Shown piece after piece: positions 8,829 through 63,329 of a stretch of DNA of 64,000 bases; within the stretch, counting starts at the first letter, position 1, and every line of letters starts with the position of its first letter. Under the pieces are notes generated by a model. That model saw nothing but the letters and a program-made list of their open reading frames with translations. It was not told where the DNA came from and made no database searches. The position numbers and the translations under genes are program-made. This stretch comes from Watersipora subatra (taxonomy: Eukaryota; Bryozoa; Gymnolaemata; Cheilostomatida; Watersiporidae), in NCBI RefSeq assembly GCF_963576615.1, contig NC_088711.1, positions 14,245,869-14,309,868 of the forward strand. The letters are read 5' to 3'.

Positions 8829-10887
8829 TTGTTGGTTTCAATACAAAAAGAATGTCATATAAAACATAAAATGAGGTTGTCAAGTCACCTTCACACAAAT
8901 ATGGCAGCCTACTAAAACTCACAACCTCAAAGCCACTAGGAATGAATACATTTTCAACCATTTGATTCACCTGTTCCTCGACGCATTTTGTTTTTCGAAT
9001 GGCCAGCCACTCGGTTGGCTTGTTGCCATTTGATTTGTTCTCCTCAACATATGCAGAGTATGGAGACACTGATGCGATAACCAACCTTCCATCTTCTTTC
9101 AGTGACTCCCTAATTTGTTTCAGCAATGTGAGCGGTTTATCACATCTGTCCAGTAGATTTAAGCAGGAAATTATGTCATATTTCTGCTCAGTCCATTCAT
9201 CGATGCCAAGAACAGCAAATCCACGTTTGACAAGTTGCTTTCGCATCTGTGTTGAGATTTCAGTTGTGTAGATATGTTGAAAATGTCCGGCCATTTTCTC
9301 AGCAACCTTCCCATCGCCTGCACCAAGATCCAGTAAAGAATCGGCTTTCCATGCTTCATCTATACCAAGTAGTTGATCGAATTGTGTAGTGGAGAACACA
9401 AACATTGAGCCACGATCTAAAAGAGACTGGTGACCGTGGGTTTCATGCATTCACAACAAATTGTGATGTTTTCATACATCACTGATTTGCAATATGGACA
9501 AACTCGTAAAAATGCTAATCAAATTTGGCAATTTAGTATACTGAGGCCACATAATTTAGTGCGCAGCTCAATCAGCCAATCAGAGAAAGGTACCAGTAGT
9601 GGTTCAATTTATATGCATTCTGTAATGTAATATATTACAAAAAAGCACTTTTTCACAACTGGTAGTACTTTTTACAACACTCATCTTCTTCAACAGTTAG
9701 AAGCGTTCTTAGCTCTAGTACTAAGAGCCATAGGACCTCAGCTAAAGCGTAGAGGTCACTTGCTCAATAACTACTGGTATATTAATAAGAAAAATTTTAA
9801 TCATACAATATTGAATGACAACTTGTGTTGGATGTAATATTTATATTAAAAAGAATCTACGCATACCAGTCGTCGAAGACCAGTTTGGCCTTGATGAAGA
9901 CTACAAGGAAAAGCCGTCCACATGTGTTTCGGCTTAGCGTATAGCAGTGGGTAACGCTGAATAATTAATACGATAACTGTACGTAATTGTATCCTTGGAG
10001 ATAGTATATAATTGAAATAAGTAAAAGTCTGGCAATTTGCACCAGATGGCCTTTAGGATGCACCCAACTACATGTAGCATAAGAACCTTAAACCCTTTTA
10101 GAATATATTTGGTCAGAGTGTATCGTAAGGTGTCTCACCTAGGTAGCCATTTACATCTGTTTGTGTCATGAATAGTTTTAGAAATGGTATGGCAATGGAA
10201 TGGTAAAGTTGCCAAAAAACAGCATCAGTCTTTTGATAGCAGTTATCCAGGAATGCCTTGGTCTCTTCGTCTTCCTCAAGTTGTACGAACTTTGACCTTA
10301 GCTCTTCTTTAATCTTCTCAAGCTGAATCTTAATTTAAAGAGTACTAATGAGAAACATGTAAGATGACCTTGTCTTTTCAATGAATTTAGCAAGAAACCC
10401 TTGAGATTGTTTTATAGAGCCCCTCATCATTTCGGTTTATAACTTGAAGTAGCAGAGAAAGGAAGTTTTTAAATTCACTTGAAAATCAACAATGTACTTC
10501 AAGCACAAATTTCAAAAACTCCTTATAGAAGGCGATAACAGCCAGAAACTTGTTTTGAAATTGTTCCAGTAGTATTGCTTGGAGCAAGTTTTAAACTTAA
10601 ACATATAATAAAGCTGAATATTAAAAGCAAAGAGGTTAATATCGATAAGCTTCAGCGTGCATCAAGGTTATTCTAGCAGTGCTGTATTAGTTGAAGCATA
10701 TATCATTGATATTTGAAAAAGTCAAGGCTCCTACCTGGTACCAGTATTCATGGCATTCATTTTTATGTCTCTCATCCTCCGCATATTTCTGCAGAAGAGA
10801 GTTGGTCACGTATGACCGTCTCATCCTTCCTAAGGTAATCAGCGTGGCAAGCCAGATAACTCCGAGAGCAGACAGCCGAATAAGCAT
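8821..10887 (-). CDS. METTL9: METTL9-type protein-histidine N-methyltransferase (three exons)
   Basis: METTL9 (DREV family) is a secretory-pathway-associated methyltransferase that makes 1-methylhistidine in His-x-His motifs. Coding exons on the minus strand are 10887-10735, 10322-10139 and 9416-8821. The product is 310 aa (human about 318). The start is fixed by an in-frame TGA directly before the ATG. The N-terminus has a hydrophobic signal/anchor segment (MLIRLSALGVIWLATLITL). Exon 2 supplies the family region ending LYHSIAIPFLKLFMTQT. The exon 2/3 join makes DRGSMFVFS, where vertebrates have GRGSMFVFS. The SAM-binding motif LLDLGAGDG is at residues 140-148. The family blocks DIISCLNLLDRCDKPLTLL and RLPYLCEGD are intact. 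An alternative acceptor 10 bp further upstream would break the frame. Confidence 0.93.
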
Positions 10888-38400: not shown

Positions 38401-39093
38401 AGTTGCATTCAGATATTTTGTTGAGCCAAAGCTAAAAGGCTCAAGAGATGTAAAATATATTGTCATGCTGATTTTTGCAATGTTACCACCTTTAAGGGTT
38501 AACTTTTTTTATATTTGCATTTACAAATCTGTCTCTAACCCAACCAAATTCTAGCATACTGTAAATTATCTAAACACTTCAACTGCACAGATACTAAACT
38601 GTATTTTTTTGTTCAGATCTAGTCAAGTTATACTTCTGGCATGTTGTTAGCCACAAAAAAGTGTGTGATTTGATTACTATTAACAATGGGAAAGTCGACG
38701 CTTACTTGCAAAATGATATTGTTGCAGCTACCGAAAATCTTAAAGCAGTAACTCGAAAAAAGCCTGTCCCTCTGTTTTTTCCTCATTCCCTGTTCATTAA
38801 TCTCTTCCGCCCTCAATCACATACCGATCTCACTCGCAAGAATACGACTAACGAAAAGGTATTTCTACGCCACTCACCTCCGTATCTATCCAGCTGATAC
38901 TCAGGTTGTGATTAGGCAGCACTTTTTCATCTCGATTGATATCATCAAGGGCGAGCTGAACAGCTGGCTTTATCCCCTCTCCGACATAGTTGTGTCGCTC
39001 CCCGAACGGTGCCAGACCTACTATCATAATCTCTTCTCCGCTACCAAAATCGGTAGTGCTGGCAGCGAACAAACCGAGCAGAGTTAAGAGCAT
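17410..39093 (-). CDS. GABA-B-type metabotropic receptor, subunit-2-like (16 exons)
   Basis: Class C GPCR of the GABA-B family (slow inhibitory signalling through Gi/o at the plasma membrane). Coding exons: 39093-38878, 31773-31636, 29882-29700, 29500-29333, 26954-26763, 25354-25154, 24609-24549, 24381-24150, 23839-23707, 22820-22713, 21499-21377, 20277-20176, 19865-19641, 19544-19371, 18378-18276, 17582-17410. Every join keeps phase; the product is 843 aa. Starting at this ATG gives a signal peptide (MLLTLLGLFAASTT). The next in-frame codons upstream lead to a stop without another ATG. Residues 20-400 form the Venus-flytrap domain (VFGGYCSSVT, VSYGNSDP, HGYAYDGMW). Seven transmembrane segments follow (KMSSPNMNNLIIIG, FGAMFAKTWRVYSIF, ALNDSKFIGLSVYNV, LCLVFVPK). 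The tail has a heptad-like coiled coil (LLAIEQENNSLLKRLEK). The membrane part is closest to GABBR2; the flytrap mixes features of both subunits. The weakest borders are the exon 5 and exon 10 donors (GTTTGT, GTTGGT). Intron 1 is 7.1 kb. Confidence 0.92.
20649..21078. repeat. 20-bp minisatellite, about 21 copies
   Basis: Tandem copies of GGCACATTTCTATAGATAGT lie in the intron between exons 11 and 12 of the GABA-B-type gene. The right half is nearly uniform. The left half has substitutions and some 19-bp units. Confidence 0.9.
21632..21730 (+). repeat. tRNA-like SINE head
   Basis: The sequence TAGCTAGGTGGCTGAGTG resembles a pol III A box. Some 45 bp later, GAAGTTCAATTG resembles a B box. It lacks a proper acceptor stem and CCA-side pairing, so it reads as a tRNA-derived SINE head and not a functional tRNA gene. 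Confidence 0.4.
21775..22145 (+). mobile_element. SINE-like composite repeat, copy 1
   Basis: Landmarks in order are CTAGCCAAACGCCCGGCGTTG, AACAGCAGGTAATGTAG, a tRNA-like segment starting GTGTAGCCTAATGGGTTAG, and a tail CAAACTGAGATTTATATA. The same order of landmarks recurs at 25.4-26.0 kb and 41.4-41.9 kb. A further head, CTAGCTGTGCTACCCAGCG, begins immediately after it at about 22,150. It lies in the GABA-B-type gene between exons 10 and 11. Confidence 0.6.
25418..25972 (+). mobile_element. SINE-like composite repeat, copy 2
   Basis: The head reads GCTCGGCATTGTACGAGTAA. A tRNA-like part starts GCTGGTTGAGCAGCATAGTG with B-box-like GTGTTCAAATCT. The tail has TTTATCGCTACAATGGGACA and GACAGACAGAATACAGAC before GAGGTTTATATTCG. 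It lies in the intron between exons 5 and 6 of the GABA-B-type gene. Confidence 0.55.
28323..29149. mobile_element. 827-bp MITE with about 73-bp terminal inverted repeats
   Basis: The left end (28323-28395) and right end (29078-29149) are inverted copies differing by only a few bases. Both run ATCAATGATATACAG, then a C run, GATAGCCGACGGCT, GGGCGGGGTTTAATGATGGA and GCTCTGT. The interior has no transposase frame. The TA-rich outer bases make the exact ends and target duplication ambiguous: the ends may be CAGG...CTG with TA duplications. It lies in the intron between exons 4 and 5 of the GABA-B-type gene. Confidence 0.85.
30448..30553. repeat. 106-bp palindromic MITE-like repeat
   Basis: Arm AAACCTCTAATTGAATGCCA at 30448-30467 is perfectly inverted at 30534-30553. 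Between the arms the motif CAATTAGAGGTGTTGGTCAA partly repeats the arm. It lies in the GABA-B-type gene between exons 2 and 3. Confidence 0.75.
31123..31180. repeat. Perfect 22-bp hairpin with 14-nt loop
   Basis: Left arm 31123-31144 (GATTATCTGGTCCATAATCACT split as GATTATCTGG and TCCATAATCACT) pairs without mismatch with 31159-31180. It is inside the intron between exons 2 and 3 of the GABA-B-type gene. The size fits either a minimal fold-back repeat or a small-RNA precursor. Nothing in the sequence decides between them. Confidence 0.8.
32404..32830 (+). pseudogene. Possible decayed coding fragment in GABA-B intron 1
   Basis: An open frame to a TAG at 32631-32633 has protein-like composition (LRCEVLNVDYVDDLLMRK, SSIGRHLSILFKTKGVAVDD). 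After a gap, another frame reads LRELEKASTNENSLFSQYGY and ends TAA, overlapping AATAAA. This looks like a broken 3' part of a gene or retrocopy on the strand opposite to the receptor. I do not recognise the family. It could be chance. Confidence 0.25.
34419..34550. repeat. 11-bp tandem repeat, 12 copies
   Basis: Exactly twelve 11-bp units of the form GGTCTACATAT or AGTCTACATAC fill 132 bp. A translated version looks like a repetitive peptide, but no exon context supports coding. Confidence 0.9.
35938..36068. repeat. GATA/GATG microsatellite
   Basis: An imperfect run of GATA, GATG and GACA tetramers interrupted by a TA run. It abuts the left end of the inverted-repeat element starting at 36069. 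Confidence 0.85.
36069..36907. mobile_element. Inverted-repeat element bordered by GATA repeats
   Basis: The left end (36069-36139) and right end (36836-36907) are imperfect inverted copies of about 70 bp. Shared parts are GATAT.RACTTTATTTAC, GGTCAATGCC, GCAAATTA.ACC and TGAGACAAAAA. The left end is fused to a GATA microsatellite and the right end finishes in TATCTATCTATC. The tetramer therefore seems to belong to the element or its target. There is no coding capacity. Confidence 0.65.
36974..37360. mobile_element. PIF/Harbinger-like MITE (387 bp)
   Basis: The ends read AAGCTGGTTCACACTAT on the left and, inverted, GGCTGGTTCACACTATCG on the right. They are flanked by TCA on both sides (36971-36973 and 37361-37363). 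A GGSY...GTTCACACT terminus with a 3-bp target duplication is typical of non-autonomous PIF/Harbinger elements. It is in intron 1 of the GABA-B-type gene. Confidence 0.65.
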
Positions 39094-39887
39094 ATCTAGT
39101 TGATGAACTAGCAGCTTATGTAAAGTATAATCTTGAGCCACAACCCAGTTTCATCAGAGAGATATATGCCTTACGGTGCTCTGCTGCAGCGCTTTCACTA
39201 ATGTACATGCGTCTCTAGCGACTCGCTCACCATCGAGTTTATTTATAGCTGAAGCTCTTCGTCTTGCCTCGCATGCCTTTGTCACTCCTTCGGATCAATC
39301 ATTAACCTGTCCACTCTTTATACACCCCTGATTACGTCCAAGAGGAGTTCAAGTACTGAGTGTGTACGGCACTTTTCTCCTTTGTTTTTACTTCCTGTTA
39401 GGTCTTAACAACCATGAGAGTCAACTTTAAGATGGTTTCATTTACGAAAGCATATTTGTTAATGAAAATTTTTGTTTGTGTGACATAGGAGCAATATGAC
39501 TGAAAATTATTCAACACGATTTTGATTGGTTTTTGATTGATTTTTTTCATCACGTCAAAATATGCTGCGTTAAGAGTCGGGTGTTTGTTAGCTTTTCATT
39601 GACAACTCTATAGGCTGTCAGCAGCTGACACTGCCAATAACCGATGTAGAAGATTCTTAAGTACATAAGAAAATAATAGCAACACATAGTCAGATCAAAG
39701 GAACAGTTTGGAGTATTCCGCTCATGTGTTTAAATGAATGGATAACTTTTAATTATCATGGGTATTCCATAATCAGACTCCGAAATCTTTGTCTGTGGTA
39801 TGTAATATTCAATATGTATAGCCAAGCGATGGGGAGTCAAACAGCTGAAAATATACATATTTCAATAATACCAACCCTTGAAAAGGG

Positions 39888-43239: not shown

Positions 43240-45465
43240 TCATCAATTGGTTAACATACACAGTAAATACCATGATCTATCTGCACAGTTCTATCATCAA
43301 TGTGACTATAAGGTTAAATGTACATACAGTATATAAGTTGTGTCATACGGAGACACCAAAATCTTTCCCAGGAATCTACTAAATACTAGCTTTTGGTTTA
43401 AGAGCTTATCACTTAGTTGAGGTATTATTTGAGTGATGGTAGCTCTCTAGGGGCGCTGATTAGACGTGAAAATGATGATATATTGGGATTGTCCTAAATA
43501 TATCGTCAAACCTTTGACCCTTCGCTGACTGAGTGTTTTAATATTCTTTGTATGCATTTCAAATGATCCTGTTGGTATATTTTTACCATTTTACGATTGG
43601 ATGTCTTCTGACCAATCATATTGCGAGAGTTTGAACTATTTACTTCAAGTTTAAATTTGTGAGTTCAATCCTCCTTTGTCCGTAATCCTAGTATTCCCAA
43701 GGCTATACGTGGCTTCTTAGGGTTGTTCCAACTGCTGATTTGAATGTCTTCATGTAGGTTTGACACAGTTATGTGCCCTCACAATGTTTCAGAAAAGCCG
43801 CAATAAAATGCAATAAAAATATTCTTTTAAAAAAACTGAATAATGATTTTAGTAATGCTACTAAATAAAGTTAATAAAAGGAGCCTTAGAGGCTCCAGCG
43901 TTATTTGACAGCTAATTGGCATCTAGGTAGTAGATAATTCCTACTCATACAACTAATAAACAAACAAAATTAGCTTTGTTCTTTGTGCCTGCGCCCCGTT
44001 ACTAGAAACAGAAATTAAAACATTTTTCTTAAAAGAGTTTTTACAATTGTGTCATCTGATGTCTAAGGAAAGTTACTTATTGTCTAGTGATGACCACATG
44101 AAGAATTGACAGCCAAGTTTGATAAATGAAGCGTTGGAGTTTGACAGCAGCTAATGGTATAAACTGGTAGTGAAGTATTAGTAAGACTTGTAGTTAACCT
44201 GGTACTTGTATTAGCCAAGTTAAAATACTCTTTCAGCTATCCAGATACATATAATGTACAGTTTGTGCATGTTATGAGTTATATAAAAAAAATATATATA
44301 TGTATATTTATATGTCATTTCAAAGAAATCAAGTTCAAAAAAGAACTTTAAACTCTACGAGTCGAGTATATTAAAACTAGACGATTTTTATGACTAAAAT
44401 TTTTTGTGGCAGGTGTATACATTTATTTAGATATATATTTATATGTATATTTGCAGACAATCAACTTAAATTACTATTTTATTTTGATAATAGTTTTTTT
44501 AGTCATACCTGTGCAATGGTAGATTATTGCTAGTGCAACCTGTTATATTATTCAAGTAATTTTATCATACAAATTATTAGACTATATAAAATATCGTATT
44601 ATATAAATTATTACATTATATAAATTATTACATTATATAATATTCGTAGTGGGTTCAGATTTTCTGAATGTCAGCTAAGCTTCAGTCTAGTAGTAGACAT
44701 CAAAGCTAACAAATTCAGCATCCTGCATTCAAGCAATCATCTTTCCGAAATGCTGCCGGTAGAAAACACATGCAAATAAATCCTACTCATCTCAATGGGG
44801 TCTAATTGCTCGGCCTGCGCTGCTGATCATCAATCTAAAAGACAATATAATACAGGATTCGTAATAGGTGTTAGCCTATCAGCTATATGGAAGTATCATC
44901 TTCATATTCGCTAGTGCCAGCGTTCGACTTGTTTTAAAGAACAGCTTCCTGTATTATTTGTATTGGTGTACAGTTATTGTCAAAAAATGAACTACAAAGC
45001 TACCATGTTATGATTAGCGTTGTTTGAGTGAAAATATCATTTTGTGAGAATATGATTTTCTTCCACCATAGACATCTTGTAAAATAGGATCTAGGTAAAG
45101 AATTATAACATCTCTATGTTCATTTATTTCCTTGTTCAGTTAATTTATGACTGTATTTAGTTAGCTATGCCAACTTTCCACCAGCTGATCTGCTTCACTA
45201 AAAACAAATTTGACGGTTTTTATCACCTCGTATATGTTTCCTGTTGTTTTTTAGCAACTCTTTTTGTATTGCTGTTCATTTTGGTAGAACAGCCGATTCA
45301 TAAAATTAAACGCTGAAAAATGTCACATATTTGGAATCGTCTCCCCTCAAATGACCACAGATCAAAAACTGCTACATCAAACACAATGATTTTTTGTGGT
45401 TGGTAAGTGCTCATTCTTTAAACGGTCTGTCAAAATCCAACTCTCTATAACCTTTTGAGCTGAAA

Positions 45466-46540
45466 TAGGTATTTGGGTGTAAGTATTTGGGTGTAGGTAC
45501 TTGGGTGAAGGTATTGGGTGTAGGTATTTGGGTGTAAGTATTTGGGTGTAAGTATTTGGGTGTAGGTATTTGGGTGAAGGTATTTGGGTGTAGGTATTTG
45601 GGTGTAAGTATTTGGGTGCAAGTATTTGGGTGTAGGTACTTGGGTGTAAGTATTTGGGTGTAAGTATTTGGGTGTAGGTATTTGGGTGTATGTATTTGAG
45701 TGTAGGTATTTGGGTGAAGGTATTTGGGTGTAAGTATTTGGGTGTAGGTATTTGGGTGTAAGTATTTAGGTATAGGTATTTGGGTGTAGGTATTTGGGTG
45801 TAAGTATTTGGGTGTAAGTATTTGGGTGTAAGTATTTGGGTGTAAGTATTTGGGTGTAAGTACTTGGGTGAAGGTATTTGGGTGTCGGTATTTGGGTGTA
45901 AGTATTTGGGTGTAAGTATTTGGGTGTAAGTATTTGGGTGTAGGTATTTGGGTGTATGTATTTGGGTGTAGGTACTTGGGTGAAGGTATTCGGGTGTAGG
46001 TATTTGGGTGTAAGTATTTGGGTGTAAGTATTTGGGTGTAGGTACTTGGGTGAAGGTATTTGTGTGTAGGTATTTGGGTGTAAGTATTTGGGTGTAAGTA
46101 TTTGGGTGTAAGTATTTGGGTGTAGGTATTTGGGTGTAAGTATTTGGGTGTAGGTATTTGGGTGTAAGTATTTAGGTATAGGTATTTGGGTGTAGGTATT
46201 TGGGTGTAAGTATTTGGGTGTAAGTATTTGGGTGTAAGTATTTGGGTGTAAGTATTTGGGTGTAAGTACTTGGGTGAAGGTATTTGGGTGTCGGTATTTG
46301 GGTGTAAGTATTTGGGTGTAAGTATTTGGGTGTAAGTATTTGGGTGTAGGTATTTGGGTGTATGTATTTGGGTGTAGGTACTTGGGTGAAGGTATTCGGG
46401 TGTAGGTATTTGGGTGTAAGTATTTGGGTGTAAGTATTTGGGTGTAGGTATTTGGGTGTAGGTATTTGGGTGTAAGTATTTTGGTGTAGGTATTTGGGTG
46501 TCGGTATTTGGGTGTAAGTATTTGGGTGTAGGTATTTCGC
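45466..46540. repeat. 14-bp minisatellite (about 76 copies) with 406-bp higher-order period
   Basis: The unit is GTATTTGGGTGTAA, with variants ending TAG, AAG or TCG and with TACTTGGG. Rare variant units recur in the same order exactly 406 bp (29 units) apart. For example, TTTAGGTATAGG occurs at about 45765 and 46171, and GTGTCGG at 45882 and 46288. On the minus strand the array stays open for over 250 codons as a Thr/Pro/Tyr-rich repeat because 14 bp times 3 gives 14 codons. This is a by-product and not a gene. Confidence 0.95.
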
Positions 46541-49500
46541 CCCACTCACCATTTGCTCAATGTAAATGTAAGTTCTGGCTGTGCATAAAAGTTTGGTAAA
46601 ATTAGTTGTTATGATGACCTTCACCTATGCGAATGTTCTGCTAAGCTGGTTAAAAGGCAGACTCAAACTTAGTCCTCAGACTAGAAAATAAAAACCCTCT
46701 TTATACGTACATAACGCCATACTCATAATTTCCCAAAGGCATAGACAGCATTAAGTTCACAAGTATAGTTCAAGCGGTGTTCGATGTGAACCAGGCTTTT
46801 ACAGCCACATCTCTCAGCCAGCTGCCTTCAGAATAATTTTTACCGGCTAAAGTTCCTTGCTGTGCTCTTAAATGTTTTTATACAAAATGAATTTCCATGC
46901 CAGTGTTAATTAACCCACTTTTCCATGTGCTATGTGCCACGTGTGAAGCCATGTATTGCTGTATAGTACAGGAGGTCCAATTTAGTCACAAATAAAGGCT
47001 GTTTAACTTTTTCCAAGAAGTAGTGATGCCAGCAACATCAGAATAAGATGTCACAGTTTAACTTAAATGGCAGCTTTAAGCAATAATTGTATTTTGATGC
47101 GCTTGAGAAGAAGCTATATGCAGTCATAAAGTCAGTCTTTACATCAAACCACTGACTGTTGGTATATAGGGTTATAGGACTCATGGCTGTCAGCTTTAAT
47201 AGTTATGGTATGTCATATCGGGCAATATTGTGCACAGTGCATTTTATATTGCGAGTTGTTATGAGATATCCATATGTATCCTTGAATTAACCTTTTCTAT
47301 AAAAATATAATTTTTGTTACGATATAGATTATACGCTAGTGAGACAAAGTAGTGCTGCCCCTCCGCCTCACATCCTCGCTGCCAGATTTATTGGCCGATC
47401 ATATTGAATAGAGATGACTGCACGCGCAGCAGAGTCCTGCAGAGATATTGCCTGCAAGAAATGCCCTACTCAGTTATCAATTAACTGAGATTTCCGGTGC
47501 TAATGTGCCCACATCGCTCCATCTTCAGTTGTGCATCATTTTTCATGCATATCTATGGGAGAGCTTCAAATACCTCGTCTAATAGCTCTTTAAAATGTGT
47601 TTGTAGAAATGATACTGTGAGCTGATAAATTAGCCACATTTTCCATCGTCTGCGAAGGTTAGAGGACAGTCTCATTAGCTTATTAGCAACCGTGATTCAT
47701 AACCACAGGCTACAGCGTTGACAACTGGTAATTAGTGGGCGGATAGACGCTGTCAGAATTCACTTCTAACTCAGTCAGCAACTTTGTGATAGTATATTGC
47801 TTAGAATCTATTAACTATTTAGATTTCATTATTTGAAACCCGGCATCGTGACATCGAGTTCGGGGTTCGAGTTTATTCAGAAAAAACACAATTCCTGATA
47901 ATGAGCGCAACCCTAAGCACAACTTATAAATTGAGTCTCATTTTGAGATCAATTGATTTAGCTTAGTCTAAGATTAAACTGCCTGCGTGTGATAATTAAT
48001 TTCTTCCTTCCAGCTTAAAGTGTTTGTGAAGATCATTCTTCAGTCGCTGTTCAAGTGTAAAAGTTGTATGATACAAAATGCAGTGTTTGTATTGGTCATA
48101 CATCTGTGTCTGTACCATAGGTCTTTTGTGCACAAACGGCTACCGTGAGATCACGGCTTTCAAGATGTACAAGTTGGTGTACTTTACTATCGTTATTTAC
48201 TAAAGTGGTAACATTTAAGCCAAAATGATTTTCATACAAAAGATTTCTCAATCTGCAGTTAGTTGCAGCAACCAGTGTAAATAAAGCTTATGAGTTTTTT
48301 TCAATTGGAATGCAGTTTAAACAAATGAAAATAAGTGGAATCAGTGAAGCCATTAAATTTGTTGCCTTTTGGGAGAAAAATATTGTGTAATCTATAAGAA
48401 TGCTTGCTTGTGAACCCTGCATGATATTGTTTAGGTGCACGCGTTGACCTTGCAAGGGCTTAGAATGTCTATGAGAGTCAGTTTTACTAAAATCAAAATA
48501 TATTATGTAAACTCACAACGTATGTTATATAAACCCATAGAGTATGTTATATCAATCCACAAGATACGCGATATTTACCCACAAGTATATAACACTCTAG
48601 TTTGCTATATATAACATTATAGTCTTTTTGATATATTGCGGATTGGTTACTGAAATGTTAGGTCTCACAAATTGTAAATACTTTTTTGCATTATCACGAA
48701 ATAGCCGTCACAAATTGTATAAATAGACTACAATTTGTGACTGCAGAACTTCCTCACTACTTTGTCCTAAAGACACAGTAGCTGACGAGATGATTATGAC
48801 TCCACGTGGAGGGTCGGGTTCGTCAAACAAAACAAGAACAGTTGCATAATAGGAAGAGCGCTTCTCTAGGAGAACTCATCTATAGAGAGTCATTCAGAGA
48901 AGTAGTACTATGTGATTTCTTTGCTTAGACAACCATGTTTTTTATTAACAATCTCATCTGTTAACAAGGCATTGCGGCTCGTCTCAAATAGCCATGCTAT
49001 TGCGCATATGGACCCTCGTTGCACGTTACTTTTTCTATCATCCTGTTATGTTATGATTTAATATAAATAAAACAAGCAAACAAATATCAGAGGCTAAATC
49101 TACCTCATGGCAGCAGACTGCTTCCCATTTCCCAAGATCTTCTCAGCATATGTAATAATTATATGGAATGCATCCTTGCATTTCGTCCACTAGAAATGCT
49201 GGGTTGGAGGCATAAAATACTATTATAAAACTCCATATTGGTATGCTCCAATAACAAAAGAGAAACGTTTCCTGTCATATCCAGATGTGTATATCCTTAA
49301 CATATGAAATCTGGTCCTTAAATAATTCGAGGAGTTGTCTTCTATCCCCGAGAAAACTCGACTGCATAGTTTTACTTTCTTTTTGCCCTTGAGAAGTTTT
49401 TCGTGTAATTCCGAAGTTGGAATCGATTAGACTACTAGTTGTTGAGATATCGTCGACATCCCGAGTCACTTCTGACCGACCTAGAAATAAAAAATGGCTG

Positions 49501-50652: not shown

Positions 50653-53600
50653 ATGACATATGATCCAAATTACGGGCCATGGAAGGATTACCTGGCCATC
50701 GACAAGAAGGCACTTATCAAGGAGTTAGGTAACACCCCCTTCGACGGAAAGAAGGCTTGTTTCGTCCCTGATGAGAAGGATGGCTTTGTTGTTGCTGACA
50801 TAGTTTCATCAAAAGGAGATGAGATTACTGTACAAGTAGCCAATGCTGGGGTAAGGCAATAGATGGCTTCTTATTTTAACTCAACCAAAGAACTCAGTCT
50901 AATTTGGAAATTTTAAGACCTGTGATCTGCTTCATTATCAAATGATAGTTAAAATTTATAATGTTCTGTCAATACACTGTTTCATTGTTTGTGGCAGCGA
51001 ACTTAATTCAATTGTTTTATTGTGTTTTTTAGCAAAAAACAGTCAACAAAGACCAGGTGCACCAAAGGAATCCTCCCAAGTTTGAGAAATGTGAAGACAT
51101 GTCCAACTTGACCTACTTGTCGGAGGCAGCCATCTTGCACAACCTCCGACAAAGATATACTTCTCAGAGGATATATGTGAGTTTTTCATGTTTTGTTTTA
51201 CCAATCGCACTCAAATGCTGCCTTAGCTGGCTCTAATGCTGCCTTAGCTGGCTTCAATGTTCTTTGCTTGGAAAATCTGATGGAAGTCAACCACACACCC
51301 TGTATATTCGAGGGATCACCTTCCTTCATTCTTATGACATTCACTATCCACTGTTTGTGATTAAATGAATTGATATTGTAATTACTAAGTCTATAGTGAT
51401 CCCTTACGAGTGTTGTTAACTTTCACATTTTTGTAAGATAGAAGCGTCTCTTCCTTACTGGAAAGAGTTATTTACCAGCCGCCCTCATATCATTGGAACC
51501 ATACAGTCAAATCACATTATATGATATTATTGTTCTTATGATAGTCTAATGGTAGTAGTTTGTCGTTTCAAAAATAATGCCAGGTTTATATAATATTATT
51601 ATGTTATTTGTGGCTGCAGTAATGCTACAGCTAAAAAAATATTTATCTTTTTAAATTTTATAATTTGTAAAATATCTTCTTTAATCAGTTTTTAGCCCTC
51701 AAATTGTCATAAGCCATGTTTAATGTGTATAGGTATGTAAATATATACACATGTATGAATATATGTAATTATGTACATACACATGAGTGATTATACGCAT
51801 ATATATACATATATTTGTATACATGTATTTGTATACAAATACATGTACATATACTTATATTTGTATGTGTCTGTACATATATATATGTATATGCATAAAT
51901 GTATATTACTATATATAGGTATATACTGTTAGACATGCAGTGTATTTTCTCTTGTAATAATTGTAACAGTATTTAGTTGTATTTAAAATTTGAAATGATT
52001 ACACTTATCCTTACGGAAATAATAAAAAATTGAACTTTGATGTCATGTCAATAATTTTGCTGCGTCTGTATTTAGTTTTTTATTCTTGAATGGCCTTACG
52101 TGAAGTTGCGCTCTGCAATTTGCTAACAGTACTAAAATATGATGATGGAAAATGCGTTTCAAGCGCACAACGCGCTATTATACACACTGCTGTGTCACCA
52201 ACAGATCTTTGAATGTCACTAAATACTTTCATACATCATTTTTATTGCACTCCGGCTGTAGTTAATCACGTTTTAGTGCGCTTCAGTAGCTGGTCAAGCG
52301 GGTCGGGTCGACTCGTTGAAAAGCAATTGTGAAATACTCGCCGATACAGTTTGCATGATTTTCATTGTCATAACGAAGGAAAGCCGAGATAAGCTAATTA
52401 ATTATAATGAATTGAGAGGAATTGTTTGCTTGGAATAACCAGTACAAGGCAGCAGAAAATCCTGCAGCACGAATATTAGGATGGAATTAAGGAGTTGCAG
52501 GCATCTACTGGTATTGGCGCCGCCGGAGCTTTAACCCGATACACCTGCACCTTGTTAGCTAGCCTTCCTTATAAGGGCTACCGGCCTCGCTCACCAGTAA
52601 TGTAATATTGTCTACAAACACTTTTCATATTACGAGTCATCTCCATTATAATTCTTAGAGTGTATTTGTTTATATATTAGCGAATATTGACAAAGGTTTA
52701 GCTTGCTCGTAATCCACCGGGTCTCCTACTACGTGTAAAACAATAAATGCCTTTTTCTCAGCACTCAAAGGTGTCCGCCATAGTCGGAGTTTTGTATTCC
52801 TATTCGCTTCTGGTGTAGCGTTATGTCAACTAGAGGGCCTTTAATAAAACTAATTCAGCTCTTTCTCTAGCTGTTATAGCGCGTCTATCACTAGTGGATC
52901 TGTCCCTTTATTCCACTGTCTGTGGATCCGCCCCTATATTCCATTGTCTGTGGATCCGCCCCTTTATTTCACTGTCTTTCTCTCTTTAGACCTACTCTGG
53001 ACTCTTCTGCGTGGCTATCAACCCATACAGAAGGTTTCCAATCTATACTCCAGAAGTGATTGACGCGTACAAGGGCAAGAGGAGAAATGAAACTCCACCT
53101 CACATCTTCTCTATCGCTGATAATGCTTATAGCAACATGCTTGTGGACCGTGAGAACCAGTCCATCCTCATTACGTATGTCGTAGTATCAGCTCTTCATT
53201 TGTGTCATGGCTTTTTGTTATTTTTTTGTTTACATGGATTGAAATTAAAAGTTTTAACAAAATTCATGTTCTACAATATTTAAAAATTCATTCAATCTCA
53301 ATTACTATTTGAACAGGTTACATAGTTTATTTTACTTAGTCTTCTGGAAGAATTTGGTCATAATAAACTATTTTGTAGCCATAGACTAATATAGGATATT
53401 GATTATTTATTATTATTGATTATTTATTTTAATTAAAAATGTTTCTTAGCCAGTGTAATAATCTCCAGTGCCATAGGTAAAACATTTTCTTATGACAGGT
53501 GTATTTTAAATTTTTAGCTATAGCAAATTTTAAAAGAAATCAAACGATTAGATTGTCAGTGATGTTTTACAACTGGTAGAGGAGAGTCTGGAGCTGGAAA

Positions 53601-56600
53601 GACTGAGAACACCAAAAAAGTCATTTCTTATTTTGCCAATGTCGCTGCTCAAGCGCCGAAGAAAGACGATAATGAAGGAGAGAAGAAGAAAAGTTTAGAA
53701 GAACAAATTGTGCAGGCTAACCCTGTTCTTGAGGCTTATGGAAACGCCAAGACCACCCGTAACAACAACTCTTCACGATTTGTATGTTTCTCAGACTAAC
53801 CTCATCTTTTTGTTTGCTCTCCCCTACCGCTGACCCTTACATGTACAGCTAGTTCCTGTTAGAAGTGGGAAAGTTTTCATCAGGAACAAAAAGCAATGGA
53901 AATCTCTTCAGTCAGCATTTATTTTCTGCAAACTTTCAGCATTCTGACTCTTAACGGGTTATGAATGCTGAACATGAAACCTGCTCATTGCTGTCTGTAC
54001 TCACTGCAGTCACCTCAGGAGGGGACAATTTCTTGATTTCAATCTACTAACATTTTCATTCAGTTTCTAAAATTCTTGAACTGTCCATTCATACCCGGTG
54101 TTACGTGCCTGCGTGTTTGTTTAGTGTGTTATGCGAGGTAGCCGACTAGCAAGCGATGGTCTTCCTCCCCACATCTTCAAGTGTGAATCCCATGTGTGAG
54201 TACCAGTTTCTACTTTTCTATTGAACCCGCTTTTTTATATGGAGATGACAACTCCAAATTAGCAAATTTGTATAATATTGTATAATATAACCTGGTGTGT
54301 ATTCCATTGCAGCCTTTTTCTTCCTTTGAGTGGTCATTGAAAGCGGTTGATGTCTCCTACCACTGCTTGTATATCAATTTATGAATAACTGCCACTAGGC
54401 ATATCTTAAATTATGCTGACATCATTTTCAGTTAGTCTCTTCAGCTTGAAGTCTAATAGTTTGAAAGATTAGTGCATTTCCATCTGGACTACTATTATAT
54501 ATCTGTACTTGTCTCACGCAGGGTAAGTTCATCAGAATCCACTTTGGTACGACTGGTAAGATTGCTGGAGCTGACATTGAGTTCTATCTGCTGGAGAAAT
54601 CAAGAGTTACGAGCCAGATGGCTGCTGAGCGTAACTTTCACATCTTCTACCAACTTCTCTCACCTGCCATCCCTGAGCTGCATGAGAAGCTGCTTGTCAC
54701 CCCTGATGCCGGGCTCTACTCAATGATTAACCAGGGTGTGCTCACTGTTGACGGAATCGACGATGTTGAGGAAATGAAGATGTGCGATGAGGCTTTCGGT
54801 ATTCTTGGCTTCTCCGAAGAGGAAAAGATCTCTCTATTCAAAGCGACTGCCTCCATCCTCCACTTTGGAGAGATGAAGTTCAAGCAGAGACCGAGGGAGG
54901 AGCAGGCGGAGGCCGATGGAACAGCTGAAGCTGAGAAGGTTCGATTGGCTTATATCTATCTGCTGGTAAAGTAACTTTTTATTCTATTATGTACATTTGC
55001 TTGACCTATGTGTTCATTGGTGCAGGTTGCTTTCCTCCTCGGAGTCAATGCCAAGGACCTCATGCAAAATATCCTCAAGCCAAAGTTCAAGGTCGGCACT
55101 GAGTGGGTGACGAAAGGTCAATCGATGGCCCAGTGTTCCTACTCGATTCAGGCCACTGTCAAGTCTCTCTATTACCGGTTCTTCGCATGGCTGGTAGACC
55201 GTGTCAACAAAACCCTTGACACAAAAGTCAAGAGGCAGTTTTTCATCGGTGTGCTGGATATTGCTGGTTTCGAAATCTTTGAGGTAAGCACTCTTAGTAG
55301 CAAAATTTTATTCTTATTTTCTGCCCTCCATTTTAAAAATTTTAGTCAGTATTGATCATATGAAGAGTTAAAATCTGGCAGTTACTTCTGTAAGCAGTTG
55401 CAGCTGCCTGTAGCAAACCATTTGGAGTCTCGTGAAATACATTAATCTGGTATCATGTTGGAACTATATGCTACAGCATGCATTCTTGATTCCTTAAAAC
55501 TCTTTCATGTAAATATGTTTTTAGCACTTGTTATGTATTTAGCAATTGAGTATTTGACTAGGGATCTGTTTTCTCTTTAACAGTTCAACGGATTCGAGCA
55601 AATTTGCATCAACTTCACCAATGAACGTCTGCAGCAGTTCTTCAATCATCACATGTTTGTGCTTGAGCAAGAAGAGTACAAGAAGGAAGGCATTCACTGG
55701 GAGTTTATCAATTTCGGCATGGATCTTCAAGGTTGTATTGACTTCATTGAGAAGGTGAGCATTTATTGTTTTTCCATATGCTGTATCTCCAATTGTGAGC
55801 TCTCACCATTACCTAAAAGATCTTTGATATCATAACTCAAACATGCCTTGTTTTTTTACAGCCTATGGGCCTGTTCTCTACTCTTGAAGAGGAGTGTATC
55901 GTTCCTAAGGCTTCTGATGACACCTTCAAGGAGAAGCTCTACCAAGGGCATCTTGGCAAAACGCCTTGCTTCACCAAGCCCAAGCCTGTCAAAGGACGAG
56001 AGGCTCACTTTGAGTTGAAGCACTACGCAGGCACAGTGCACTACTCCATCACTGGCTGGCTTGAGAAGAACAAGGATCCCATCAATGATTGTATTGTCAA
56101 CCTCTTCTCTGAGTCTAAAGAAGCTCTGATTGCTTTGCTCTTCAAGAAGCCTGAGGAGGCTAAGGGAGGCGGCGGTAAGAAGAAGAAGGGTGGTGCCTTC
56201 CAGACCATCTCTTGTGCCCACAGAGAGTCCCTCAACAAGCTCATGATCAACCTGAACAGCACCGCTCCGAGTTTCATCAGATGTATCATCCCCAACGAGA
56301 CCAAGAGCCCAGGTGTTATTGACGCCGAGCTAGTACTCAACCAACTCCAATGTAATGGTGTGTTGGAGGGTATTCGTATCTGCAGAAAGGGCTTCCCCAA
56401 CAGGATTGTCTATTCTGAATTCAAGCAGCGCTACACCATTCTTGCTCCCAATGCTGTCCCAGCCGGATTCGCTGATGGCAAGGTTGTAGCAGAGAAAGTA
56501 CTCGGCTCCTTGGCCCTCGATGCTAATGACTATCGTCTCGGCATTACCAAGGTCTTCTTCAAAGCTGGAGTTCTGGGAGGCCTTGAAGACTTGAGAGACG

Positions 56601-59600
56601 AAGCTCTTACCAAAATCATCTCACGCTTCCAGGCCTTTATCAGGGGCTACCTCATGAGGAAGAACTACAAGAAACTGCAAGACCAACGTGTTGCTCTCTC
56701 TGTCATTCAGAGGAACACGAGGAAATGGCTGCTTCTCAAGAACTGGCAGTGGTGGAAACTTTACCTCCGAGTCAAACCTTTGCTCAACGTTGCCCGTGCT
56801 GAGGATGAGATGAAGAAGAAAGAGGAAGAATGGGCTGCGACCAAGGAAGAGCTTGATAAGATCACCAAGCGCTACAAAGAGTTGGAAGAGCATAACGTTG
56901 ATCTGACCAGGGCCAAGAATGAGCTCAGCTTAGAGTTGGCCACTTACGAGGAAGCATCCGCTGATGCCGATGACAAGATGGCCAGCCTTATTACTCAGAA
57001 GGCAGACCTTGAAGCGCAACTAAAAGAGATGGAAGATCGTCTGATGGATGAAGAGGACGCTGTCACCGATTTGGAGGGACTCAAGAAGAAGCTGGCAGGT
57101 GAATGCGATGAGCTGCGCAAGGATGTTGAGGATCTTGAACAGGCGCTGGCCAAGGCTGAAACGGAGAAACACGCCAAGGACCACCAGATCTCTACACTGC
57201 AAGGAGAGATGGCTCAACTTGATCAGCAGATATCTAAACTGCAAAAGGAGAAAAAGAATGGAGAGGAGAACTCCAAGAAGTTGACAGAGGACCTCCAAGC
57301 TGAAGAGGACAAGGTCAACCATCTCAATAAAGTGAAGCAGAAGCTGGAGGCTAACCTTGACGAGGTAAGCACTGCTTATGCATTCATGTTCTTGATGGTA
57401 TTTTTCCGTAAACATATCTATGCATTTGCAACTGGAAGTAATATAGCAAAAATTTACCAAATAGTCTCAATGATCTGTCAAGTATGGTTTTAATTTATAT
57501 CCTGGTATAATATTTATTTCTGAAAAATATAGGTGAAGGCTTTACGAAAATGAAATACTAAAAAAAGCTAGAAATACAGGAGACATTTTGTGTATTTCAA
57601 AGCAAATCCAGGAATTAATGCATCTTCAGTAGTTAGGAGTTTAACAAAGATGCAAGTATTTCCATTCATGTGTAGTACTAAGAAAAGCTTTTCATTTTAG
57701 TCATTAAGTGACAAAGCATTTCTCTTACGATAATGTGAAAATTAATTTTCAATTGTCATACTTAGAGTCACCTTCTCCTGATCCTGATCATTGAATTTCA
57801 TTCTTAAAAACATTGTACAATAAATATTGTTTACTTTACTGGGGCATTATCTGAATTTAGTTGAGAAAATATTTGCTGTCCTCTGAAACACTGGCGCCGT
57901 GTCAGTAGTGTGTTTGAGGCGGAAGATATGAATGTGATATTATAATGTATTTGACAGCTGGAAGATGCTCTTGAGAGAGAGAAGAAGGTCCGTGGAGATG
58001 TTGAGAAGGCAAAGAGGAAGGTTGAAGGTGACCTTAAGATGACCCAGGAAACTGTGGAAGACTTGGAAAGAGTGAAGCGAGATCTTGAGGAGATGGTACG
58101 CAAGAAAGATGGAGAAATCAACAACCTCAACGGACGTCTTGAGGATGATGCCAGTCTCATTGCTAAGCTCCAGAAGACCATCAAGGAGCTGCAGGTTTGT
58201 TTCAATATAAAAATCCAAGAAGTTAAAAATAATTTGTGTAATAGTAAAACTAGTGATAGCATGATAGTAATAGTAAAAATAGTGATAGCATGATAGTAAT
58301 AGTAAAAATAGTCAAATAACAATAATAGTAAAACACTGAGTATACAGCATCAGACACCAAATCTTCATTGTTTTCATTTCAATTTTTGTTAGGCAGTCAA
58401 ATATGCAAAATTAAAGCGTTATTAAAAATTTTACTTGATGCTGTTTTAAATATCTTGTTTTGTTTTTTTCAGAGATTTGATTTGCTTTAGCCAGTTTTTT
58501 AATATCAGATAGATGTGGTTGGATTTCTGCAGGGACCAACTATGTTTGCATAATTTTCAAAGCAGAAGCAGTAAATAGTAGCGAATTACCTCTTATGACT
58601 GTCTTAGCTAGTCTCTCTAGCAGCATCAAATGCCTACACTTATCTCACTATAGATGCACGGCCATATGGTATTAGCTCACCCAGAATTTTGATGCAATCA
58701 CTACACAGCTAAGAAAATCAATGCCTTATCTCAAAAAAATAACAACAGTGAATTTGTTGTAGTCAAACTGTGTATTAGATTGTTAGTGGCTGGTCGTTCT
58801 TGAATATATTATGGCTGCTTCATCTGATCATATCGAACTTTACTCTGACATTGACTCAGAGCATTCTGACTCTCCGAGTTTGATAGTTAATGGAGAACGT
58901 TCTAGAAAATCATCAGACTCTAATTGGGGATTGGATAACTGCGAGGGATTTATAACAGAAGAATGTTATGAGGTGCCGCTTCCTCACGCGCCCGCACCAG
59001 TGTCTTATGTCGGTTCACCAACTGTGAAATATCCAAGTCGATATATTTCGCAAGTTTACATCAGCAGTGGTATATCTCATAGGAGTAAACGACACATCAG
59101 GGAGAGTCGAGAGTTTGAGCAAATACCGCAAGCAACGCGTAACCTGCTTGAAGTAATTGAGTAGCTTTTTTATTTTAAAATTCACGTATTACAGCATAAT
59201 TGTTGTCAAATGTTGTGGTTTTCATGGTGTTCATGCTAACAAACAAGACTGTTGGGTTTGTTGCAGGCCCGCATTGAAGAGCTTGAGGAAGAACTAGAGG
59301 CTGAGCGTGCTGCCAGGTCAAAGGTTGAGAAGCAGAGGAACGAAGTTCAACACGAGCTGGAGGATCTCTCCGACAGGCTAGATGAGGCCGGCGGTGCAAC
59401 AGCGGCTCAGGTCAGCATCTCGTAGTGCAGCGTTGTAGGTCTCAATAAATTGCCTGTTTTCTTGACTCATCTAGTGTCAGCTATGATGGTTCATGTCGAT
59501 GATTGTTCGATAGGTGGAGCTGAACAAGAAGAGAGAGATAGAGCTGCAGAAGCTGAGACGCGATCTCGATGAACAAGCCATGCAGCACGAGGCCACGGCA

Positions 59601-62600
59601 GCTTCTCTACGCAAGAAGCAGCAAGACGCCGTCAATGAGCTTTCTGATCAGATGGACTCCATAACCAAGGCCAAACAAAAGTATGTTTACTTCAGATGCA
59701 TTACTTTTCACTTCTATAATTATTAGCAATGGTTTCAGAGGCTGCCTTTGCTGCATTTGTGAGGAACAACTGATCTCTCTCTTTCAGGGTAGACAAAGAG
59801 AGAAATCAACTTCGATCAGAATTAGATGACCTTAGTAGCCAATTGGAGACCATGGCTCGTGGCAAGGTACATTTTTTGGTGTTTTGTCCGATATTTATGT
59901 CATTCATTTTATATTTAGGGTCGAGAAGGAAAAGTCAAGCCTTCGTAATGAGTACGAAGAACTGGCTGCACAACTGGAGCAGTCGGAGCGAGCTAGGGTA
60001 ACTGCGTGTGCTGAGATTTTCTAGAGTTTAATTTTCTTAGACTTTTCAGCTATGTTTTTATAATTCTGAAACGTTTAAGATGTTTTGTCTTCATTGAGTA
60101 TTCAACAGTGTAAAGCTTGCATTTCACACAGTCTAAATTGCAGTTTGTTTTATTTAGATCTGGTGTGCCTGACATGCTTGTAAAGGTTTGTTGCCATACG
60201 AGGATTCCTATTTTGTAGTCAAATGCTGAGAAACTTGCCAAATCTCTCGAGTCGCAGCTCTCAGAGCTCCAATCTAAGCTCGATGAAAGTGGTCGCCAGT
60301 TGGTTGACCTGAACAGCAGCAAGAGCCGAATGAGCCAAGAGAACCAGGATCTTGCCAGGCAGTTGGAAGAAGCTGAGCACTCGGTCGGCGCCCTCACCAA
60401 GCTCAAGTCTAAATTGCAGGCTGAGCTGGAAGAGGCGAAGCGTAGCCTCGAGGATGAGACCCGTATGAGATCTAAGCTCGCCACTGAGGTACGCAACCTG
60501 CAGGCTGACAACGACACTCTAAGGGACCAGGTCGAAGAAGAGAGTGAAGGAAAGGCTGAGGTGCAGAGGCAAATGGCCAAGGTTCAAGGAGAGCTTGCTT
60601 CCCTGCGCGCCAAGATTAACAGCGGAGAGTTTGGCGGCGGTGAAGCAAGTGAGGACCTCAAGAGAAAGATGAATGCTCGAATTGCAGACATGGAGGCTCA
60701 GCTTGAACAAGCCAATGCCAAGTGCAGCAGTTTGGAGAAGGTCAAAAACAGGCTGACCATCGAAATTGAGGATCTCGTTGTTGAGGTGGAGCGCGCGAGC
60801 TCTGCTGCCGCAACTTTAGAAAAGAGAGAGAAACAGTTTGACCGAAGTCTCTCGGAATGGCAATCGAAATACCGCGATGTTCAGGCTGAGCTTGAGGCGT
60901 CGCAACGCGAGGCCAGAGGATATTCTACCGAAGTCTTCAGGTGCAAATCACAGATTGAAGAAGTCAGTGATGTTGTTGAGTCTTTGCGACGTGAAAACAA
61001 GAACTTGAATGAAGAGATCCATGACTTAACTGACCAACTGAGCGAGGGAGGACGAAGCACACATGAGCTTGATAAGGCCAGACGTCGACTTGAGAAGGAG
61101 AAGGAAGAATTACAGTCAGCCCTGGAAGAGGCGGAATCTGCTCTTGAACAAGAAGAGGCCAAGGTCATGCGATTCCAACTTGAATTGAGTTCTGTAAGGT
61201 CTGAGATTGAGAAGAGAATCTCGGAAAAAGAAGAAGAATTTGACAACACACGGCGAAACCATGCACGCACCCTCGAGTCCATGCAGGTTACCTTAGATGC
61301 TGAATCTAAGGGAAGATCTGAAACTCTGAGACTAAAAAAGAAGTTGGAGCAAGACATCAATGAGCTTGAAGTTGCTTTGGATGTAGCCAACAGAGGGCGT
61401 GCAGATGCCGAAAAGTCATGCAAGAAATACCAATATGACTTCAAGGACCTCCAGACCTCACTGGAAGATGAGATCCGACAGAGGGATGAACTCCGTGAAC
61501 AACACGCTCTGTCAGAACGCCGATGCACCATGTTTAATGGAGAGATTGAGGAAATGAGAACTTTGCTAGAACAAGCTGAGAGAGGACGCAAGTCTGCTGA
61601 AAGCGAGCTTTTGGAAGCTGCTGATCGCGTCAACGAACTATCAGCTTCCAACGCTCACTCCAACGCGCAAAAACGTAAATTGGAAGGCGATCTGGCTTCT
61701 CTCAACTCTGACCTTGAAGACGCCAGCAATGAGTTGCGCGCTGCTGAGGATAGAGCAAAGAAGGCTGCACAAGATGCCGCCAGACTCGCTGAAGAACTGC
61801 GATCTGAGCAAGATCACAGCATGCACTTGGAGAAGATGCGCAAACAGCTCGATATGCAACAGAAGGAGCTCCAAGCTCGTCTTGATGACGCAGAGGCAAA
61901 TGCCATGAGAGGTGGCAAACGCGCCTTGGCCAAACTAGAAGAGAGAGTGAGATACCTTGAAGCTGAGCTTGACACTGAGCAGAGACGACACCAGGAGGAG
62001 ATCAAGGCTTCTCGTAAGACCGAGAGACGTCTCAAGGAACTGCAGATGGCTGCTGACGAGGACAAGAAGAGCCAAGAAAGGTTGACTGAGCTTATCGACA
62101 AGTTGCAGAAGAAAATCCAGGTCTACAAGAGACAAGTCGAGGAGGCAGTAAGTTGCTACATTGATCATTTTTACCAACTTGTTATCATGTAGCTTGGCTT
62201 GTTTAAAAAGTTAGAAGTATTCTCAAATAATAAAAAAATTTTGCTCGCAGGAAGAGATCGCTGCTGTCAACCTCGCCAAGTACCGAAAGGTGCAGCACGA
62301 ACTCGAGGAAGCTGAGGGTCGCGCCGATGAAGCTGAAAACAGCGTTGCCAAGATGAGAAGCAAAAGCAGGAGCAGCATCAGCCAATCTCGCAGTACCATG
62401 GGTGGAGCCGGAGGAGTAAGTAGACAACTCATATTGAATAACATTAAACTAGGCACTCGCAACTTCCACTTTTGAATCAATTTCATGTCATTTTCAAATT
62501 GAAGTAGTATATTTATTTGGAGCCAAAATGTAACTTTGTAATTCTCTTTTGCTAGAGCACTATTACTGTCAAAACAACTCGCAGAGTTGTCAGCTCAAGC

Positions 62601-63329
62601 TCATCTGAGCAGATCTAAAACTCAACGTGTAAGTTCATCACAATCTTGGCCCTGGATTTCTCGTAGACCTCTGTGGGTTACATGTGACTGTCAACTCCGC
62701 TCTTATGTACATAAGCTTTGCTCCCCTCACCTAAGTCCTGTGCCATCCGAATCCAGAGCTTAAGCTGTGCGCTGCCTATTCCAAATACATCAAATTTGGC
62801 TGATAAGGATCACATAGAGCAATAACATTTGACTTTTTTTACAGTTTTGATTATCTCTGAGTAACATGGTATGTCATAAGTTTGAAAAATAACATTTTTG
62901 CATGTTCCTGCTTATAGAGCATTTTCATACAAAAATATAACAGTTAGTTACTAACCAGAGCCATCAACATCAACCCTTCAATATTGTGCTACCTAGTAAT
63001 ATTAGTCTATTGATTTCAGTTTTTGGCAGCGGCTTTGTAAACCCTTTGGACTGGCTTGTACAGGGATCATGATAGCACGATCAGTTAGTAGTCGCTTTAT
63101 GTGCATGCTGGCTCCTTCCAAAGGCTTTTCTTGCCACACTCAATGCTCTTAAAAATGTACTCCTTTGTAAGTTTTTGATATTTGCCTTGTGTTATAGCGG
63201 CCTTATCTAAAAACCTTTTTCTCAATTCTACAGCTTGCTGGTGGTTACTCAAGTTTCTCAAGATACAGCAACTCACGAAACACTTCACAATCCGAAATAG
63301 TCGAGGAAGGTGACCTGCAGCACGAGTAG
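50653..63329 (+). CDS. MHC: Muscle (striated-type) myosin heavy chain, alternatively spliced
   Basis: Thick-filament motor protein. Coding exons: 50653-50850, 51033-51176, 52990-53174, 53580-53781, 54522-54938, 55026-55283, 55584-55754, 55862-57364, 57958-58194, 59267-59410, 59514-59680, then 59788-59866 or 59919-59997, 60219-62147, 62251-62415, then 62556-62618 or 63234-63329. Every join keeps phase. The product is 1953 aa with the first tail or 1964 aa with the second. Visible parts are the P-loop GESGAGKT (177-184), switch I NNNSSRF, switch II DIAGFE, and a lysine/glycine loop 2 near residue 625. The SH2/SH1 helices ([18 protein letters not shown]), the converter, two light-chain IQ helices with WQWW, and a long coiled-coil rod follow. 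Scallop striated myosin is about 1940 aa. A single 1.5-kb exon covers loop 2, the converter, the neck and early S2, and a 1.9-kb exon covers most of the light-meromyosin rod. This is fewer introns than in scallop. The exon 54522-54938 donor (AAG|GTTCGA) is weak. Confidence 0.96.
58811..62618 (+). CDS. Catchin/myorod: alternative N-terminal exon joined to the myosin rod
   Basis: Exon 58811-59152 sits in a myosin intron and encodes 114 residues unrelated to myosin. It starts [20 protein letters not shown], and an in-frame TAG lies 9 codons before the ATG. It ends RNLLE at a donor (GAA|GTAATT) in phase 0, which fits the next myosin exon starting ARIEELEEE. Joined to the shared exons from 59267 on, it gives about 962 aa (973 with the second tail), close to molluscan catchin/myorod at 110-120 kDa. 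That protein is a catch-muscle thick-filament component made from the myosin gene: a unique head followed by the C-terminal rod. The head is serine/tyrosine-rich and has a basophilic-kinase-like site (RSRKSSDS), consistent with the phosphorylatable head known for the family. It must use its own promoter within 58195-58810. I see no TATA box there. Confidence 0.85.
59788..59866 (+). CDS. Alternative S2-hinge exon, version a
   Basis: 79-nt exon, phase 2 to phase 0, encoding [20 protein letters not shown] plus TMARGK (residues about 1210-1235 of the myosin). It aligns residue for residue with version b 52 bp downstream. Donor AAG|GTACAT, acceptor TTTCAG. Confidence 0.88.
59919..59997 (+). CDS. 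Alternative S2-hinge exon, version b
   Basis: 79-nt exon with the same phases as version a, encoding [20 protein letters not shown] plus QSERAR. Only 52 bp separate it from version a, too short to be spliced efficiently. Using both would also break the frame, so the two must be mutually exclusive. Drosophila Mhc has a comparable 26-residue alternative exon pair (15a/15b) at the S2 hinge. Confidence 0.88.
62556..62618 (+). CDS. Alternative C-terminal tail exon a
   Basis: Acceptor TTTTGCTAG, phase 0, encoding [20 protein letters not shown] and stop. This is a serine-rich non-helical tailpiece typical of muscle myosin. A strong donor (CGT|GTAAGT) follows the stop by 10 bp, so the exon can be spliced onward or skipped. 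Confidence 0.85.
   Translation, partial: STITVKTTRRVVSSSSSEQI
63234..63329 (+). CDS. Alternative C-terminal tail exon b
   Basis: Acceptor TTCTACAG, phase 0, encoding 31 residues starting [20 protein letters not shown] and ending EGDLQHE before TAG. It is used when exon a is skipped. When exon a is included, this would lie in the 3' UTR. No canonical AATAAA follows in the expected range; variants such as AATATA near 63,560 exist. Confidence 0.75.
   Translation, partial: LAGGYSSFSRYSNSRNTSQSEIVEEGDLQHE

Follow-up and report, generated by a model that had tools for sequence, protein, structure and literature searches.

A putative catchin-type start exon within an intron of a muscle myosin heavy chain gene

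Could one intron of a muscle myosin heavy chain (MHC) gene hold a second start, from which a myosin rod lacking the motor would be made in the manner of molluscan catchin (also called myorod)? The question is raised by an open frame in a 64,000-nucleotide stretch of DNA (contig NC_088711.1, positions 14,245,869 to 14,309,868 of the forward strand), referred to below as the window, whose own numbering is used throughout. The frame, at 58811-59152, lies in intron 9 of the gene. Its most likely reading, and on the sequence a rather probable one, is an alternative start exon of the catchin/myorod type, to which the phase of the frame, the position by residue count at which it would meet the rod, and a step in base composition all point. 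The features on which the argument depends are the following.

50653..62618, plus strand: coding span of the muscle myosin heavy chain gene, recognised by a stop-free spliced model, Pfam and PDB.
57958-58194, plus strand: exon 9, phase 0.
58195..59266, plus strand: intron 9, containing the candidate exon and flanked by exons 9 and 10, both phase 0.
58473..58810, plus strand: possible 5′ untranslated part of the head exon, suggested by an acceptor score, a GC step and the high-GC segment 58506-59165.
58811..59152, plus strand: candidate catchin-type head, an open frame of 114 codons in intron 9, ending in QATRNLLE.
58973..58978, plus strand: rival in-phase donor, GAG/GTGCCG, score 3.9, which would give a 54-residue head.
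59084..59113, plus strand: codons 92-101 around Ser99, a site resembling those of myosin light-chain kinase, with the pattern [KR][KR]xxRx[ST].
59153..59158, plus strand: putative donor of the head exon, GAA/GTAATT, phase 0, score 3.6.
59267..59410, plus strand: rod exon 10 (beginning ARIEELEEE), which would be the first shared exon, starting at MHC residue 1106.

The frame begins with an ATG at 58811 (A at −3, G at +4), downstream of an in-frame TAG at 58784-58786, and closes at a TAG at 59162-59164. After 114 codons it reaches the GT at 59153, in phase 0 with exon 10, whose acceptor (TTTGTTGCAG followed by GCC, 59266/59267) is itself phase 0. Joined there, head and rod give a stop-free product of 962 amino acids with a predicted mass of 109.8 kDa, or of 973 amino acids with the second terminal exon. 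The part shared with myosin is 848 residues long and identical to its tail from residue 1106. The coordinates, phase and length that the original prediction gave for the frame, and its figure of 962 residues for the product, agree with the spliced model. The candidate head is, as far as composition tells, Ser-rich and lacks the look of a coiled coil (20 Ser and 8 Pro in 114 residues). Its first half is acidic (pI 4.2) and its second basic (pI 10.0), an arrangement that would suit the actin binding reported for unphosphorylated myorod head peptides (PMC12040844). The frame's own stop at 59162-59164 would also permit a nested one-exon gene, 58811-59164, encoding a free protein of 117 residues. 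That is highly improbable: the first AATAAA past the stop is at 59444, already in the next myosin intron, the first ATTAAA is at 62443, and a free protein has no need of phase 0 at 59153.

Where along the rod would a catchin-type head be attached? By residue count, made in part on a scallop sequence, the predicted junction is that of molluscan catchin to within one residue. The scallop rod, in the sequence that we take to be correct, comes to 829 residues when counted from the same ARIEEL. The rod of the window aligns with it over 829 columns with no internal gaps and with 494 of the 829 identical, the surplus of the window sequence being in the tailpiece. The motor part of the same scallop protein, as taken here, matches PDB at 315 of 315 residues. 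The catchin rod is described as the C-terminal 830 residues of myosin (PMC5963113).

The head also carries a possible kinase target. Ser99 of 114 stands in SKRHIRES, 15 residues before the junction, and this stretch is close to KRPQRAT, which we take to be the light-chain sequence. The pattern of basic residues ahead of Ser or Thr occurs in the head at 99 only. When the residues of the head were shuffled it came at 99 in 3 of 20000 cases and anywhere in 241 of 20000, figures that are tempered by the pattern having been picked after the sequence was viewed and by the presence in the head of several further Ser with nearby Arg. Smooth-muscle light-chain kinase phosphorylates Thr141 of myorod (PMC12040844, PMC4410989), and Thr141 of 156 is likewise 15 residues ahead of the junction. 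The site at Ser99 gives moderate support to a head of the catchin type, and its phosphorylation is a prediction.

A long intron may contain an open frame by chance, one that is never translated. For the frame in intron 9 this is unlikely, though it deserves more weight than any other alternative. Measured from an ATG to an in-phase GT, the longest frame has 114 codons in intron 9 and 0-34 in the other 13 introns (14 introns, 6104 nt), and only the intron at the catchin junction, by count, has one of such length. A frame of at least 114 codons ending at an equal or better donor appeared in 1 of 3000 dinucleotide shuffles of intron 9, and in 0 of 3000 shuffles made to the composition of the flanks. 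A plain ATG frame of at least 118 codons (117 are observed) arose in 4 of 3000 of the former and 0 of 3000 of the latter. The frame has a GC content of 0.436, compared with 0.305 on its 5′ side and 0.325 on its 3′ side. Segmentation blind to the frame delimited a high-GC stretch in intron 9, 58506-59165, with none as strong in 300 permutations or in 300 permutations of 12-nt blocks (both on a coarser 4-nt grid), and the right end of that stretch, 59165, adjoins the donor and stop of the frame. By codon position the GC content of the head is 0.509, 0.456 and 0.342. Its synonymous codon usage is closer to that of TDP2-like and METTL9-like frames elsewhere in the window, a training set of only 486 codons, than to three non-coding backgrounds (P 0.0022, 0.0018 and 0.0068), and in its per-codon score with this usage the head exceeds the 90% point of a set of 33 control frames. 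The step in GC, the codon-position pattern and the correct phase all tell against chance. A transposon or other repeat as the source of the frame was considered and rejected: there are no other copies in the window, and the tandem repeats of the intron, at 58238-58312 only, lie apart from the frame. The frame and intron 9, compared with the window at E 0.01, gave self matches only.

What would precede the ATG? Within intron 9 an acceptor ending at 58472 (TTTTGTTTTTTTCAG followed by A, 58458-58473) has a score of 12.9, higher than any of the gene's 16 acceptors (6.1-12.8; the acceptor matrix was built from these 16, and the donor matrix from the gene's own 15 donors), and no site as strong occurs at 1-50000 on either strand. 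GC content is 0.24 before this acceptor and 0.36 after it. The strong acceptor and the step in GC together suggest a larger exon, 58473-59152, with an untranslated part of 338 bases, spliced from an upstream leader exon. The original prediction had confined the transcript starts to be sought to 58195-58811. That test is too narrow, given that the acceptor suggests a longer, possibly leader-spliced, 5′ exon.

The same acceptor could serve in another way. Spliced to 58473, exon 9 is predicted to read KELQ-RFDLL-stop, and the stop after five codons would halt the myosin frame, giving either a truncated two-headed myosin or nonsense-mediated decay. An exon of this kind would account for an acceptor above all those of the gene, but it does not explain why a frame of 114 codons is there, with an ATG and the correct phase, and as the main role of the region it is very unlikely, though it could coexist with catchin use. 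Scarcely credible is a symmetric cassette exon, 58787-59152 (366 nt, 122 codons), added to full-length myosin. Such an exon would be stop-free and of phase 0 at both ends, but its acceptor, at 58786, has a score of 0.4 where those of the gene range over 6.1-12.8, and the rod would be interrupted by a non-helical stretch containing proline.

On the catchin-type reading, a second transcript would arise from a promoter inside the myosin gene, its 5′ untranslated part probably beginning at the acceptor 58472/58473. Splicing from 59152 to 59267 would then yield a myosin rod of about 962 residues without a motor. Its 848-residue rod would be built into the thick filament together with myosin. The short Ser-rich head would protrude from the filament and, like that of molluscan catchin/myorod, would be switched when phosphorylated, here near Ser99.

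Several observations, besides the late choice of the kinase pattern, weigh against this reading. The putative donor at 59153 has a lower score than any of the gene's 15 donors (3.8-11.9), and 13.6% of 5767 GT sites at 1-50000, both strands, score as high. A second in-phase donor is available at 58973. We infer that 59153 is the one used, because the frame is open for 60 codons further and its stop lies within 12 bases beyond 59153. The codon usage of the head differs from that of the myosin exons: GC at third positions is 0.342 as against 0.562, and the score with myosin usage is −13.5 to −15.4 where coding of the myosin type would be expected to give +14 to +26. Myosin usage fits better than the three non-coding backgrounds at only P 0.034, 0.26 and 0.16, and by the per-codon score with it the head ranks close to the median among the 33 control frames. 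Such a bias is odd in a muscle protein of high abundance. The ATG and the in-frame stop ahead of it are as the original prediction had them, but with the donor and the codon usage this weak, the word clean was too strong. Among 250 windows of the frame's length in other parts of the myosin introns the highest GC content is 0.456, and 6% of 2500 windows at 1-50000 reach that of the frame. Real segments of 1072 nt from 1-50000, both strands, attained the 114-codon-plus-donor criterion in 1 of 92 cases and an ATG frame of at least 118 codons in 4 of 92, these controls being uncleaned, with real genes and a minisatellite among them. There is no Pfam match for the head and its best PDB match has E 1.6; no head of a molluscan catchin came up in either. 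Nor did viral contigs yield a relative, all three being poor sources of animal head sequences of this kind. The weak donor, the codon usage unlike that of myosin exons, the failure to find a relative of the head in those sources and the 4 of 92 would each suit a chance frame. In addition, 8 upstream ATGs within 58473-58810 would be unfavourable for efficient translation, and promoter motifs in 58195-58810 show no excess over expectation (TATA 1 with 1.5 expected, MEF2 1 with 0.5, E-box 2 with 1.7), though as evidence these counts are uninformative.

The gene that hosts the candidate exon is modelled with 15 coding exons encoding 1953 amino acids, all introns being GT-AG and no stop intervening. 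Pfam myosin head and tail matches fall in its exons 8 and 13, and the nearest solved structures in PDB are those of muscle myosins. Two of the exons are long, 55862-57364 (1503 nt) and 60219-62147 (1929 nt). Its 3′ part includes the following alternatives.

59788..59866, plus strand: hinge exon version A, 79 nt, in the gene model, of cluster-11 type.
59919..59997, plus strand: hinge exon version B, 79 nt, with phases as in version A.
62556..62618, plus strand: terminal coding exon 1 of the gene model, 20 codons and a stop.
63234..63329, plus strand: alternative terminal coding exon 2 of the gene model, 31 codons and a stop.

Loop 2 presumably lies within the single 1503-nt exon with no flanking introns, and for that reason the loop-2 exon pair of flatworms cannot be present. 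That pair is reported for the six flatworm genera of PMC3912159 (in Schmidtea, for 2 of 3 genes). The tandem 79-nt hinge exons, presumed to be mutually exclusive, look like the hinge pair termed cluster-11 of protostomes in the same paper (PMC3912159). With the modelled exons masked, no convincing second copies of myosin exons were found in the rest of the window (best E 0.014, on the opposite strand at 32.6-32.8 kb). A search with rod exon 13 of viral and prokaryote genome contigs gave nothing, as expected for an animal gene.

Elsewhere in the window, a one-exon frame resembling tyrosyl-DNA phosphodiesterase 2 lies on the plus strand at 7860-8693 (PDB E 2.4e-58). Convergent with it, on the minus strand at 8821-9450, is an exon resembling the METTL9/DREV histidine methyltransferase, whose match starts at position 63 of the 265-position family profile; an upstream exon is therefore likely. 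Exons of a gene resembling a GABA-B receptor, with long introns, are spread over 24059-39150 on the minus strand, with a PDB E of 2.3e-06 for 38851-39150; the matches to ANF_receptor (38851-39150) and 7tm_3 (24062-24403) are below the Pfam cut-off. There are two minisatellites, one at 20648-21078 with a 20-bp unit in 21.7 copies and the other at 45466-46537 with a 14-bp unit in 76.6 copies. The latter is open in several minus-strand frames (381 codons at 45411-46556) and is probably not a gene. Neither Rfam families nor tRNAs were found in the window.

From what kind of animal does the myosin come? A 311-residue stretch of the motor gave 499.8 bits with PDB entry 1qvi, 487.0 with 3i5f, 431.8 with 3jbh, 405.3 with 7qin and 383.4 with 8u95, entries that we take to be from scallop, squid, tarantula, rabbit and fly, respectively. 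The scallop motor scores 563.1 bits with that of squid, above the score of the window with either. These scores suggest a lophotrochozoan from outside the pair formed by scallop and squid, or else a fast-evolving mollusc.

It may be, though the balance falls a little to the other side, that a catchin-type rod is encoded here in a non-molluscan lophotrochozoan, such as a lophophorate, a nemertean or an annelid, that its start exon is older than the molluscs, and that the head persists chiefly as a short, kinase-switched extension beside the rod. Among the matches listed in the open-licence literature, judged by titles and the beginnings of abstracts, there was no report of a non-molluscan catchin, and as far as that search reaches the candidate is possibly the first catchin-type start outside molluscs. 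If so, the rod without a motor may be older than catch muscle and have a broader function in the thick filament. It would then also be easy to look for the head exon in the Mhc genes of lophotrochozoans, since both its place and its phase are fixed.

How does the candidate compare with headless rods already described? The Drosophila myosin rod protein also comes from an internal start in Mhc. It starts earlier and has about 260 residues more (PMC3912159), whereas the start in the window is at residue 1106 of 1953, the catchin site, and a rod protein of the Drosophila type was rejected on that ground. The end of the motor, the IQ motif and the first part of the tail all lie in exon 8 of the window gene, and no exon therefore begins directly after the light-chain-binding region. 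The tail gene Mhc8 of Lottia starts exactly at the scallop catchin start (PMC3912159), and its rod is in this respect like that predicted here. Mhc8, however, is a separate gene without a unique head exon, whereas the exon in the window sits in a complete myosin gene.

The closest parallel is with molluscan catchin/myorod itself, a protein described from the catch muscle of molluscs, chiefly bivalves, for which a role as the catch linkage has been proposed (PMC4410989, PMC12040844). Its head exon has been found in Aplysia, Biomphalaria, Crassostrea Mhc2 and Lottia Mhc6 (PMC3912159). Myorod is made up of 156 unique residues followed by the C-terminal 830 residues of MHC (PMC12040844) and is reported at 106-120 kDa (PMC4410989, PMC12040844). 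Two differences stand out: the head in the window has 114 residues rather than 156, which speaks against its being a catchin head, and the motor domain of the window falls outside scallop and squid. The original prediction had claimed a match to catchin in size and design, while remarking that the head looks short. The phase, the junction by count, the overall size, the Ser-rich head and the kinase-type site fit that claim. In both cases the alternative start exon lies within a muscle Mhc gene, in the window as a reading frame, and the rod junction, in the window a predicted one, is equal within one residue by count. Both, the one as a predicted product, have a short unique head ahead of the C-terminal myosin rod, at about 110 kDa, and in both a kinase-type Ser or Thr stands 15 residues before the junction.
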